Assembly: GCF_000069785.1 (NCBI RefSeq)
Contig: NC_010528.1
Coordinates: 558,001-622,000, forward strand
DNA from: Cupriavidus taiwanensis LMG 19424
Lineage (GTDB): Bacteria > Pseudomonadota > Gammaproteobacteria > Burkholderiales > Burkholderiaceae
Length of the DNA: 64,000 nt
Direction: 5' to 3'
This document shows positions 1 to 25,500 of this stretch, one piece after another. The position numbers and the translations under genes were made by a program. How positions within the stretch are numbered: the first letter of the stretch is position 1; each line of letters starts with the position of its first letter. A model generated the notes under the pieces. The model had not been told where the DNA came from. It searched no databases and saw only the letters and a list, made by a program, of their open reading frames with translations.

Positions 1-839
1 GCGGGCTTGTCGTTGGCCCATGCGGCCAGGCGGCTGTTCTCGGGGCCGTCGACGATCTCGGCCACGTCGGTGATGCGGATCGGCGCGCCGTTCTTGTAGC
101 CGAGGATGATCTGGCGGTATTCGTCGGCGGAGCGCAGCTGGTCGTTGGCGTCGATGGTCGACGCGCGCTGCGGGCCGTCGAAGCTCCCCTTGGCGCCGTT
201 GACATTGGACGCGCCGATGGCGGTGCGCAGGTCGTCGATCGACATGCCCAGCGACGCCAGCGCGGTCGGGTTGGCCTGGATGCGCACCGCGGGACGCTGC
301 CCGCCGCTGATGGTGACGAGGCCCACGCCCTGGATCTGCGAGATCTTCTGCGCCACGCGCGTATCGACCATGTCCTGCAGCTTGGGCAGCGGCATGGTGT
401 CGGACGTCATGGCGATGGTCATGATCGGCGCGTCGGCCGGGTTGACCTTGCTGTAGACCGGCGGCATCGGCAGGTCCGACGGCAGCAGGTTGCTGCCGGC
501 ATTGATGGCGGCCTGCACCTCCTGCTCGGCCACGTCCAGCGGCAGCGTCAGCTCGAACTGCAGCGTGATCACCGACGCCCCTCCTGACGAGGACGACGAC
601 ATCTGCTTCAGGCCCGGCATCTGGCCGAACTGGCGCTCCAGCGGCGCGGTCACCGACGAGGTCATCACGTCGGGGCTGGCGCCGGGGTATAGCGTGGTGA
701 CCTGGATCGTCGGGTAGTCGACCTCGGGCAGCGCCGACAGCGGCAGCAGCCGGTAGGCCACCAGCCCGGACAGCAGGATGGCCAGCATCAGCAGCGCCGT
801 CGCGACCGGGCGCTCGATGAAGAGGCGGGACGGGTTCAT
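1..839 (-). CDS. mdtB: RND multidrug efflux permease, MdtB/MuxB type (partial, N-terminal 279 residues)
   Basis: Inner-membrane RND proton antiporter; the gene runs off the left edge, so only the N-terminus is present. The start is the ATG at 839, preceded by AAGGA seven bases upstream and lying 9 bp after the stop of mdtA, so the two are co-transcribed. The N-terminus ([19 protein letters not shown]) holds the first membrane helix, roughly residues 9-33, followed by the periplasmic porter domain with the family segment [15 protein letters not shown]. The order of membrane-fusion protein then permease matches mdtABC/muxABC operons, in which a second RND subunit normally follows. Substrates cannot be read from the sequence. 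Confidence 0.9.
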
Positions 840-22409: not shown

Positions 22410-23030
22410 TCAGGCGCGGCGCTGCGGCAGGATGGCGTCGAGGAACGAGGTGGCGCGGAATTCCAGTTCGGCCACATAGTCGTCCACGCGGCGGCGGAAG
22501 TAGCGCCAGAAGATCAGCGCCGGGATCGCCACGATCAGGCCGAAGGCGGTGTTGTACAGCGCCACCGAGATGCCGTGCGCCAGCTGCTCGGGGCTGGTGC
22601 CGGTGCCGCCTTGGTTGCCGAAGATCTCGATCATGCCGATCACCGTGCCCAGCAGCCCCATCAGCGGCGCCACCGAGGCGATCGTGCCAAGCGCGTTCAG
22701 GTAGCGCTCGAGTTCGTGCGCGACCACGCGGCCGGCTTCCTCGACCACGTCCTTGGCGGCGTCGCGCGAGGTATGCGGCTGCAGCACCACGTGGCGCAGC
22801 CCCGCGGCCAGCACACGGCCCAACGGAGAATTCTGTTCCAGCGTGTTGACCACTTCCGGCGTGGCGCGGCGCTGCTGCGCGGCCGCCAGCGCTTCTTCAT
22901 ACAACCTGGCGGGCAGCACCTTGCTGCGCTTCAGCGACAGGAAGCGTTCCACGATCAGCGCCAGCGCGATGACAGAGGCGAGCAACAGCGGCCAGATCGG
23001 CCAGCCGGCCGCTTGAATGATGGAAAACAA
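22410..23030 (-). CDS. exbB: Biopolymer transport protein ExbB (MotA/TolQ/ExbB proton channel)
   Basis: Channel partner of ExbD, 206 aa if translation starts at TTG 23030 (reading MFSIIQAAGWPIWPLLLASV). The frame has no ATG or GTG close to the conserved N-terminus, and a GGGGG run lies about 5 bases upstream of the TTG. Longer upstream ATG starts would add up to 88 non-homologous residues that cross the repeat region. Three membrane segments are seen, with the channel signature GTIASVAPLMGLLGTVIGMI and ALYNTAFGLIVAIPALIFW. A rare TTG start would limit translation of the whole exbB-exbD-lpxK unit. Confidence 0.9.
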   Translation of the reverse strand: MFSIIQAAGWPIWPLLLASVIALALIVERFLSLKRSKVLPARLYEEALAAAQQRRATPEVVNTLEQNSPLGRVLAAGLRHVVLQPHTSRDAAKDVVEEAGRVVAHELERYLNALGTIASVAPLMGLLGTVIGMIEIFGNQGGTGTSPEQLAHGISVALYNTAFGLIVAIPALIFWRYFRRRVDDYVAELEFRATSFLDAILPQRRA

Positions 23031-23237
23031 TTGGACCCCCGGGATCGACAACCGAATAACGAAACCCCAAACCACCAGCCGGCATGCCTTGAGGCGCGTG
23101 GGCAGGGTGCCTTGCTGCGCGCTCCGGCATTGCTCTAAAAAAATCAGGCGCCACTCTAACTCGCGCTCCGGCGCGCGGCAAGCGACGGTGCGCGCCTGTC
23201 TCCGGCACGCATCGCGTGCGGACCGCGCGGAGCACCG

Positions 23238-23352
23238 CTTTCCACAGCGGACAGGGACAGTGTTGTGGATCGATTGTGGAAAGCTGCCGGACAAGATGGC
23301 TAAACCATTGATCGAAAAGGGTAAAGGCGACCCTGCTTAAATTTTGTGCAAT
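23238..23352 (+). repeat. Repeat unit A (46-bp module 23238-23283 plus conserved tail)
   Basis: CTTTCCACA (23238-23246) and TGTGGAAAG (23275-23283) form a perfect 9-bp inverted repeat; TGTGGAT begins at 23264, offset 26 from the unit start, with the right arm at offset 37. TGTGCAAT follows at 23345-23352, 62 bases beyond the module. Confidence 0.9.
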
Positions 23353-23452
23353 GCCGCCCGCGATGCGCTGCGCCGCATCGCGCACGTGCCGTGGCGCTGG
23401 CTGCCACAGCGTGCGGCCGCCTTTCTGTACGCTGGAGCACTTTTCGACCGCG

Positions 23453-23567
23453 CTTTCCACACGTCAGCGGGACAGTGCTGTGGAGGGCTTGTGGAAAGCT
23501 ACCTGAAAAATTGCATAAGTCCTTGATTCGAAAGGCGGTACATCCTGCTGCCTAAAAAACGGGCAAA
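23453..23567 (+). repeat. Repeat unit B (46-bp module 23453-23498 plus tail)
   Basis: The same arms as unit A (CTTTCCACA / TGTGGAAAG), with the internal TGTGGA at exactly offset 26 and the right arm at offset 37. The tail is diverged; the position matching TGTGCAAT reads CGGGCAAA. Confidence 0.9.
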
Positions 23568-23624
23568 CGGTCGTATGGTCCGCTGCCGGGTCTCGCGGCG
23601 CCCTGTCTCCTAGAAAATCGGGGT

Positions 23625-23739
23625 TTGTCCACAGCGGCAAGGGAGAGCACTGTGGATGGCCTGTGGACAATTCCGGGAGAAGCGATCTAACCATCTGAAT
23701 TAAAGGAGCTTTTGCGGCGCTGCCGCGAAAATGTGCAAT
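23625..23739 (+). repeat. Repeat unit C (46-bp module 23625-23670 plus tail)
   Basis: The arms are TTGTCCACA and TGTGGACAA, changed relative to A and B but still perfectly complementary. The internal TGTGGAT is at offset 26 and the right arm at 37. TGTGCAAT recurs at 23732-23739 with the same 62-base spacing as in unit A. Confidence 0.9.
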
Positions 23740-23870: not shown

Positions 23871-23990
23871 TTATCCAGAGACGCTGTGGATAACTTTGTG
23901 AACAAGGCCTTTGGCCGCCTTGTAAGTGGTTGATGCAAAAGAAAAATGGTTATATTGCCTAATTTTTGTTGTGCTCATAAATTGCATAAG
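23871..23990. promoter_or_regulatory. Consensus DnaA box with AT-rich tract
   Basis: TGTGGATAA at 23885-23893 is a perfect DnaA-box complement, facing TTATCCAGA (23871-23879, one mismatch). The next stretch, 23931-23990, has 43 A/T of 60 in a GC-rich genome. AAATTGCATAAG at 23979-23990 repeats exactly a sequence in unit B (23508-23519). Origin-like or titration-site-like in appearance; function unproven. Confidence 0.6.
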
Positions 23991-24114: not shown

Positions 24115-25500
24115 ATGTCTGACTTGCCGAATTTGTCGCGTGACCCTTCCTTCACCGCGCCGCGCAGCGGCCGCGAGGTGATCCCGGTCGGCGAACTGAA
24201 CCACGCCATTGCGCGCGTGCTCGAACGCAGCTTTCCGCTCGCCTGGGTACGGGGCGAGATCTCAAACTTCACGCGCGCGGCGAGCGGCCACTGGTATTTC
24301 TCGCTGAAGGACGCGCGGGCGCAGATCCGCTGTGTGATGTTCCGCGGACGCAACCAGCATGTCGACTTCCAGCCGCGCGAGGGCGAGGCCGTGGAAGTGC
24401 GCGCGGTGGTCTCGATGTACGAGGCGCGCGGCGAACTGCAGCTTGGCGTGGAGGCCATGCGCCGCGCCGGACTCGGCAATCTCTATGAAGCCTTCCTGCG
24501 GCTCAAGGAAAAGCTGTCGCAGGCCGGGCTGTTCGCGCCGGAGCGCAAGCGCCCGGTGCCGGCGCAGCCGCGCGCCATCGGCGTGGTCACGTCGCTGCAG
24601 GCCGCGGCGCTGCGCGATGTGCTGAGCACGCTGCGGCGGCGCGCGCCGCATGTGCCGGTGGTGGTCTATCCGGTACCGGTGCAGGGCGCGGGCGCGGCGC
24701 AGAAAATCGCGGACATGCTCGATGCCGCGGCCGCGCGCTCGGAATGCGACGTGCTGATCCTGTGCCGCGGCGGCGGCAGCATCGAAGACCTGTGGTCGTT
24801 CAATGAAGAGGTGGTGGCGCAGGCGATTGCGCGCTGCACGCTGCCGGTGGTCTCGGGCGTGGGCCACGAGACCGATTTCACCATTGCCGACTTTGTCGCC
24901 GACGTGCGTGCGCCAACGCCCACCGGCGCGGCCGAGCTGGTCAGCCCGGATCGCTCGCACCTGCTCGCGCAGACCCTGCGCGCGCGCGATGCGCTCAGGC
25001 AATGCCTGCGCCGCGGACTGGACCTGCGCGCGCAACACCTGGACTGGCTGGCGCGGCGCGTGCGCAGCCCGCAGGCGCAGTTGCAGGAGCGCCGCGCGCA
25101 GGTCGACAATCTGGCGCGACACTTGCGCTCGGCATTGCGTGACACCGTGGTGTCGCAGCGCCATCGCCAGCAACTGCTGGCAATGCGCTGGCGCGCCTGC
25201 CGCCCCGACGCGCTCGCTGCCCACGCCGGCGTCGCGCGGCTGTGGCAACGGCTGCAGGCGGCCGCGCTGCGCCAGCACGAGCGCGCCGCGCAGCGCCTGG
25301 CACGCAGCGCGGGCGCGCTGGAGCTGCTGGCGCCGCAGCGCACGCTGGAACGCGGCTATGCGGTGCTGCTGGACCAGCGCGGACGCGCGCTGCGCGCCCC
25401 CGCCGAGATCCGCGCGGGCAGCGTGGTCGAAGCGCACCTGGCCGAGGGCGTGGCCGACCTGGCGATCGCCGGCGTGCAGGCCAAGCTGCCCGAATTCTGA
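24115..25500 (+). CDS. xseA: Exodeoxyribonuclease VII large subunit
   Basis: Single-strand-specific exonuclease subunit acting with XseB, 461 aa. The N-terminal OB fold covers [20 protein letters not shown] to about residue 105. The catalytic region includes [39 protein letters not shown] and [24 protein letters not shown] helical C-terminus ends [14 protein letters not shown]. xseB is not adjacent. Divergent from exbB across the repeat region. Confidence 0.96.

Follow-up and report, generated by a model that had tools for sequence, protein, structure and literature searches.

The locus analysed here occupies C1:581238-581971 of a three-contig genome (3,416,911, 557,200 and 2,502,411 bp) and falls within a window, the whole 64-kb stretch of DNA that was analysed, which corresponds to C1:558001-622000. 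It is flanked by exbB on the minus strand and by xseA on the plus strand (both names come from the earlier note on this DNA, that of exbB also from similarity of the frame). Most matches between the exbB open frame and its homologues begin at about residue 87-89 of the frame, and one begins at residue 65; since most of them start that far into the frame, the locus is probably placed between the two genes and not inside exbB. The earlier note had described three modules of DnaA-box-like motifs at 23238, 23453 and 23625, each with a 9-mer at 0, TGTGGA at +26 and a second 9-mer at +37, and all three are present exactly in this form. The length of 46 bp given for them was too small, even though the sequence itself was correctly stated, as each belongs to a unit of about 112 bp, and a fourth unit at 23871-23971 had been missed. 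We refer to the units as A to D; their features, in window positions, are as follows.

22410..23294, minus strand: exbB open frame, probable gene start near 23030
23238..23246, plus strand: DnaA box I of unit A, CTTTCCACA (layout and conserved columns)
23254..23260, plus strand: conserved GGGACAG of unit A (GGACAG columns 85-100% conserved in 150 modules)
23264..23272, minus strand: DnaA box of unit A at +26, with weak outer bases (layout and conserved columns)
23275..23283, minus strand: DnaA box of unit A at +37, CTTTCCACA (layout and conserved columns)
23287..23295, plus strand: conserved half-site of unit A, about +49..57 (module alignment)
23301..23313, plus strand: IHF-like site of unit A, TAAACCATTGATC, 1 mismatch to TAAnnnnTTGATW
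23335..23349, plus strand: Fis consensus site of unit A, GCTTAAATTTTGTGC, 0 mismatches
23453..23461, plus strand: DnaA box I of unit B, CTTTCCACA (layout)
23469..23475, plus strand: conserved GGGACAG of unit B (layout and module alignment)
23479..23487, minus strand: DnaA box of unit B at +26 (layout)
23490..23498, minus strand: DnaA box of unit B at +37 (layout)
23516..23528, plus strand: IHF consensus site of unit B, TAAGTCCTTGATT, 0 mismatches
23550..23564, plus strand: Fis consensus site of unit B, GCCTAAAAAACGGGC, 0 mismatches to GNNYRNNWNNYRNNC
23625..23633, plus strand: DnaA box I of unit C, TTGTCCACA (layout)
23641..23647, plus strand: GGGAGAG of unit C, a variant of the conserved heptamer (sequence)
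23651..23659, minus strand: DnaA box of unit C at +26 (layout)
23662..23670, minus strand: DnaA box of unit C at +37, TTGTCCACA (layout)
23688..23700, plus strand: degenerate IHF position of unit C, TAACCATCTGAAT, 2 mismatches
23722..23736, plus strand: degenerate Fis position of unit C, no match within 1 mismatch
23871..23879, plus strand: box I of unit D, TTATCCAGA, with G instead of C at position 8
23885..23893, minus strand: box II of unit D at +14, TTATCCACA, perfect
23897..23905, minus strand: box III of unit D at +26, TTGTTCACA, completing a core of DARS geometry
23923..23935, plus strand: IHF-like site of unit D, TAAGTGGTTGATG, 1 mismatch, 26 bp after the start of box III
23957..23971, plus strand: Fis-like site of unit D, GCCTAATTTTTGTTG, 1 mismatch, 60 bp after the start of box III
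24115..25500, plus strand: xseA (exonuclease VII large subunit), a recurring neighbour

The extent of the unit emerged from an alignment of 150 modules drawn from 52 sequence-distinct loci, each with at least two modules less than 400 bp apart (the wide-set type of genus g4 was left out), in which the conserved part reaches from 0 to about +113. A DnaA box on the plus strand is followed by GGGACAG, by two DnaA boxes on the minus strand and then, at +63 and +97, by sites of IHF-type and Fis-type consensus, respectively. The conserved blocks read [CT]T[TAG]TCCACA at 0, GGACAG at +17 and TGTGGA at +26 and +37, where the TCCACA and both TGTGGA columns are invariant by construction, being part of the search pattern; further blocks are CC[GT]GA[GC]AAG near +49, [TC]AANNNNTTGAT at +63 and, at +97, a block that is palindromic and AT-centred. 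The IHF consensus TAAnnnnTTGATW in its strict form lies on the plus strand at +63 in 57 of the 150 modules and at no other offset in the first 130 bp. Allowing Y at two T positions raises the count to 88, and freeing the last letter as well raises it to 137, with 1-2 matches at any other offset. For Fis, GNNYRNNWNNYRNNC is found at +97 in 127 modules, with smaller peaks at +29 (30) and +48 (8) that probably stem from the conserved boxes, and the stricter GnnYAnnnnnTRnnC at +97 in 81. TAAnnnnTTGATW and GnnYAnnnnnTRnnC are the consensuses used for E. coli DARS2 in the passages of PMC4245941 that deal with these sites. Within the window, the IHF site of unit B is the sole strict match to TAAnnnnTTGATW. 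Unit C is the weakest unit at both positions, which counts against a uniform function of the units.

The outer arms of the modules had been described as covarying. Every one of 151 modules has A at position +44, and position +1 has T in 125, A in 23 and C in 3. Complementary outer triplets are present in 48 modules, compared with a mean of 28 and a maximum of 42 in 1000 shuffles. This excess is real as a count, yet kinship of the loci can produce it, and the two halves of the module vary within the tolerance of a DnaA box, not strictly as pairs.

In the genome, the exact arrangement is confined to this locus. Exact matches to TGTGGA-N5-TGTGGA number three in the 6.48-Mb genome, all at modules A-C, and the longer pattern TCCACA-N17-TGTGGA-N5-TGTGGA likewise gives three, all at the locus, with none for the reversed-pattern control. 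The search for this layout in relatives that the earlier note had proposed bore it out: the exact core pattern was retrieved from 75 of 398 genomes of the family (the present one included), with a reversed control of 0 in every group counted. Its own genus contributes 58 of 59 genomes (57 with exactly three copies and one with two; the sole genome without the pattern is 78% complete), genus g24 all 16 (ten with three copies and six with two) and genus g4 its single genome, with two copies, and the pattern is absent from the remaining 322 family genomes. A scan of named species gave at least 119 stretches with modules; among the matches listed, most distant taxa have a single module, and those with close-set modules are unclassified Burkholderiaceae, Cupriavidus and Ralstonia. 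That single distant matches represent replication origins found little backing: a DnaA query of ten loci (L069 and nine others) placed dnaA near one of them.

Unit D differs from the other three in the spacing of its boxes, which start at 23871 (plus), 23885 (minus) and 23897 (minus), that is, at 0/+14/+26. We measured the cores of DARS1 and DARS2 in E. coli MG1655, which we take to lie at bioD-uvrB and upstream of mutH, respectively: both have the spacing 0/+14/+26 with the orientations of unit D, and each fits our triplet pattern with 1 mismatch. As the relevant part of PMC5742627 defines a DARS, box I is opposite to boxes II and III, and the spacing is equal in DARS1 and DARS2. The orientation is shared by units A-C and D, and the spacing is that of unit D but not of the strong boxes of A-C; the latter lie at 0/26/37, with only a half-site at +14, and for this reason A-C alone are not filed as DARS. 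When searched with 19 specified letters and one mismatch allowed, the genome contains a single 0/+14/+26 triplet, namely unit D, and this holds even at 2 mismatches. In the family, the triplet is present in 116 of 160 genomes and 15 of 25 genera, with no reversed match, and decoys in which box I or box III was moved by 2 bp were found in 1 and 2 of the 160 genomes, respectively. At the level of the order, in a set that includes seven genomes of the own family, 131 of 240 genomes and 69 of 117 genera possess it, the reversed control again being 0 (decoys were run at family level only). Two triplet matches are present in 14 of 15 genomes of genus g24; in the six genomes listed with both matches, the second one reads TTATGCACAGAACATGTGGATAAGTCTGTGGGAAA, or nearly so, and lies elsewhere (L239:1511-1545).

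The triplet accompanies the modules with great regularity. Of 70 fetched loci that have at least two modules (window not counted; the two collections share some species), 68 carry it downstream of the last module when the three boxes together may have up to 4 mismatches, at a distance of 204-274 bp and once of 423 bp; it was not found after the last module in L069 and the short L153. In L069 (Burkholderiaceae bacterium PBA), two modules lie 3027 bp apart with no triplet found, and in the g4 genome (L205) xseA is preceded by boxes II and III but not by box I. Both may be cases of a broken-up array, and our guess is that the two belong to one genus. Position 8 of box I of unit D is G or A in all 48 loci compared, a departure at an important base; box I of E. 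coli is also off consensus, at position 9. The IHF position of unit D (+52) matches within 1 mismatch in 13 and within 2 in 41 of the 48 loci, and its Fis position (+86/87) is exact in 9 and within 1 mismatch in 41.

From the order listing we chose 37 triplet loci by hand and took stretches of 4-6 kb around them. The triplet adjoins xseA and/or exbB in 20 of these loci, from 17 other families, and the other 17 loci have neither gene within that range. All 21 xseA/exbB-side triplets of other families keep CACA in box I, and 10 of them carry a Fis-type site at +84..87, where about 0.11 would be expected from the other offsets (3 matches at all 105 of them together). IHF sites are rare at this side, being found with 1 of the 21 triplets. 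Triplets away from the two genes (L286, L301 and others) have a Fis-type site at +84..87 in 5 of 19 cases. Four genomes of family f8 (L268, L269, L270 and L271) were chosen for their several matches, three other f8 genomes being outside the sample; the exbB-xseA region holds triplets in all four (6, 6, 4 and 6, at up to 3 mismatches), and in one array 1.25 kb separates the first triplet from the second. An IHF-type site lies at +51..53 in 18 of these 22 triplets and a Fis site at +84..87 in 8. These arrays of 4-6 units, mostly with IHF-type sites, are a cleaner case than the locus in the window. Within the own family, 19 genera were sampled with one genome each; 11 of them retain boxes II and III, searched as TGTGGATAA-N3-TGTG, in the 1.5 kb preceding xseA, and among these g24 alone has a clear box I. 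Complete triplets fetched from the own family are, with the exception of L249, located away from xseA and exbB, and the 38 triplets in its other genera have a site at the IHF position in 3 cases and at the Fis position in 5.

The offsets suggest how units A-C may be related to unit D. In the window, the distances from box III to the IHF and Fis sites of unit D equal those in A-C, and counted from box I both sites are shifted by 11 bp in A-C, from +52 to +63 and from +86 to +97. These 11 bp are the spacing of the two strong minus-strand boxes of A-C and amount to one helical turn, and GGACAG at +17..22 occupies the place of the second part of box II. In this register, the heptamer of unit A would be half a DnaA box on the minus strand at +14. 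Most simply, A-C would have arisen by copying of the canonical unit, with a further box acquired and half of box II lost in the copies. The spacing between modules follows the helix as well. Inter-module distances fall into nine classes (118-119, 141, 152, 159-162, 169-175, 183-185, 194-195, 204-205 and 214-216 bp; two larger distances, 344 and 345 bp, were left out of the phasing analysis), whose phase concentration is R 0.92 at 10.72 bp, and none of 5000 random sets of the same number and range, with values at least 6 bp apart and periods of 9-14 allowed, was as good. Taken over all 97 inter-module distances, which are not independent, R is 0.81 at 10.86 bp. Such phasing favours proteins bound along one face of duplex DNA. 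The distances that separate module C from unit D show no phasing at 10.72 bp (R 0.21); a period of 9.94 gives 0.89, on six classes, a number too small for the value to carry weight.

Genes are present for DnaA, for Hda (above the TIGR03420 cut-off), for both IHF subunits, alpha and beta, and for a member of the Fis family. The last of these proteins passes the NCBI 'Fis family' model and falls below the cut-off of the E. coli-type Fis model. With these genes present, ADP-DnaA is likely to be produced and the partner proteins exist. The gene dnaA starts at C1:707, so the locus is about 0.58 Mb from the origin region. Contigs of 16 relatives were fetched, and eight of them have dnaA at or close to their start; for the seven of these that belong to the own genus, the distance from dnaA to the locus is 405-803 kb, or 0.22-0.37 of half the contig as fetched, and in one g24 genome it is about 976 kb. 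The origin region of chromosome 2 (G000:C3, near both contig ends; L170:1721-2826) contains 19 repeats of the CGCAGAAACGGGTACG type. Exact copies of this repeat are scattered over chromosome 2 to about 112 kb from the contig start and one-mismatch copies to about 168 kb, and chromosome 1 has a single match, at 1 mismatch; the scattered copies are possibly initiator titration or handcuffing sites.

Set beside E. coli DARS2, unit D and the f8 units share the three-box core at 0/+14/+26 with box I opposite to II and III, and the locus is likewise intergenic and away from oriC. Candidate IHF-type sites and, beyond them, candidate Fis-type sites, which match their consensus unevenly from unit to unit, lie on the right-hand side of the core, as in DARS2. 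The differences lie in number and distance: E. coli DARS2 is a single unit, whereas there are four here and 4-6 in the four f8 genomes, and the sites at +52/+63 (IHF) and +86/+97 (Fis) compare with IHF at about +93..121 and required Fis sites further right in E. coli, the latter placed partly after the section of PMC4245941 that covers them. Our scan of E. coli DARS2 for IHF sites gave no strict match and, at 1 mismatch, two sites 3 bp apart, in agreement with the description in PMC4245941. The boxes of modules A-C at 0/26/37 plus a half-site at +14 are unlike E. coli DARS2, as is the genetic neighbourhood, exbB-xseA here and the mutH region there. DARS1 shares the core geometry of unit D; according to the part of PMC5742627 devoted to it, it works in vitro without additional factors, and here the boxes are accompanied by IHF- and Fis-type sites.

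We consider it likely that the exbB-xseA region is a DARS2-like DnaA-reactivating locus of four tandem units, A to D. Judged by its anatomy, it is probably a candidate site for DnaA recharging, as DARS2 is in E. coli. In each unit, DnaA would bind one plus-strand box and two minus-strand boxes in a head-to-head arrangement, and IHF and Fis on the adjoining sites would bend the DNA. If the locus works as DARS2 does in E. coli, ADP-DnaA assembled on it would be driven to release its ADP, and the resulting apo-DnaA would rebind ATP and allow more initiation at oriC, about one third of a replichore away. Unit D would be the ancestral core, lying between the same genes in many families of the Burkholderiales, and A-C would be its tandem copies in Cupriavidus and Ralstonia, in which an extra DnaA box shifts everything after box III by 11 bp; the units would act in concert in DARS2-type DnaA reactivation. 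In favour of this reading are the box geometry of unit D and its specificity against decoys, the IHF- and Fis-type consensus sites, the synteny with xseA and exbB, the helical phasing and the set of genes for the partner proteins. Weighing against it are the missing full box at +14 in A-C, the altered position 8 in box I of unit D, the poor IHF and Fis matches in unit C, in unit D of many loci and in other genera of the family, the scarcity of IHF sites beside xseA in other families, the greater distance of both sites from the core in E. coli, the score of the Fis protein below the E. coli-type cut-off and the different phasing between module C and unit D.

The broader view of the earlier note, that DnaA boxes here mark a replication-control locus, fits the conservation, the box geometry and the IHF- and Fis-type consensus sites; the datA-like member of that class which it had named is not the best one, because the three-box geometry is that of DARS and the Fis-type sites are as in DARS2. 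A datA-like locus would bind ATP-DnaA and, together with IHF, promote ATP hydrolysis, or else titrate DnaA, thereby lowering initiation. DnaA boxes with IHF-type sites between genes in the oriC-proximal part of chromosome 1 suit this function, and datA likewise uses IHF, as stated in the part of PMC5742627 concerned. We nevertheless regard it as unlikely: decoy geometries are almost absent, DARS spacing is not seen among the boxes located around datA in MG1655 (compared by box positions), and Fis sites are a feature of DARS2 and not of datA in the portions of PMC5742627 and PMC4245941 that bear on them. E. coli datA thus resembles the locus in combining DnaA boxes with IHF, and departs from it in box arrangement and in having no Fis site described in that part of PMC5742627. 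The region could also be a promoter responsive to DnaA, IHF and Fis that ties exonuclease VII, and perhaps exbB, to replication state or growth phase. The adjacency of xseA to the syntenic loci and the retention of boxes II and III upstream of xseA in the 11 genera, one with a clear box I, speak for such a role, which is nonetheless unlikely in our judgement, as 4-6 units over 0.7-0.95 kb, phased in Cupriavidus and Ralstonia, would exceed the needs of a promoter, and 17 of the 37 triplet loci (stretches of 4-6 kb) lie away from both genes.

Cupriavidus, Ralstonia and close relatives have a second chromosome, and one is shown in the present genome. A checkpoint resembling Vibrio crtS, a chromosome-1 site that triggers replication of chromosome 2, would suit a locus about 0.58 Mb from oriC in a two-chromosome genome, with modules A-C confined to these taxa among the genomes searched and the matches listed. 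It is very improbable, given that the triplet is present in many other families and that the locus, in contrast to crtS, is without iterons of the chromosome-2 initiator. The iteron CGCAGAAnCGGGTACG, searched genome-wide for this crtS/RepA reading, has no match in the window within 1 mismatch; of its 38 matches, chromosome 2 holds 37, and the remaining one, at 1 mismatch, is on chromosome 1 outside the window (reversed control, 3). Our literature search found no paper on crtS with chromosome 2 in Burkholderia and Ralstonia. The earlier note had also raised a secondary replication origin and an RNA structure, and both find little support. DnaA boxes with IHF and Fis sites are ingredients of oriC too, and one 50-bp stretch, at 23950, has an A+T fraction of 0.72, but the other 50-bp stretches range from 0.24 to 0.60, and the GC skew is positive on the left and negative on the right, a polarity opposite to that of an origin, which gene orientation can cause; we give initiation at this site hardly any credence. 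Hairpin arms controlling exbB or xseA at the RNA level are scarcely credible either. The arms can pair in the window modules, triplet complementarity exceeds the shuffle maximum, and one of six folds reaches z -2.2 (range -0.5 to -2.2). Against this, the outer arm bases are not kept paired, +44 being invariant while its partner varies; the +26 TGTGGA, the IHF and the Fis blocks are conserved outside the proposed stem; the helical phasing argues for duplex DNA; and Rfam searches came back empty, both for the region up to E 1 and for the window at the gathering score.

Returning to DnaA reactivation, part of PMC4245941 reports Fis and the core of DARS2 to be conserved among gamma-proteobacterial relatives of E. 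coli, and one review, in its passage on the subject, states that DARS-like sequences occur in many proteobacteria (PMC10380432). Our literature search found no DARS paper for betaproteobacteria, Ralstonia or Burkholderiales, an earlier mention being possible. The locus would represent a syntenic, widely kept and repeated version of DARS in another order. A bolder and more tentative proposal, possible but somewhat doubtful, is that an ancestral DARS of the Burkholderiales at exbB-xseA was arrayed in some lineages, and that in Cupriavidus and Ralstonia it became a phase-locked array of three units, with an extra box per unit and a decayed old box I, working as one cooperative, switch-like DnaA recharger. 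If this is true, it would be a new architecture for the timing of initiation in two-chromosome bacteria. The locus yields exact predictions for DnaA, IHF and Fis binding, and it renders both DnaA recharging outside the enterobacteria and timing control in multi-chromosome bacteria directly testable in a laboratory strain that is tractable.
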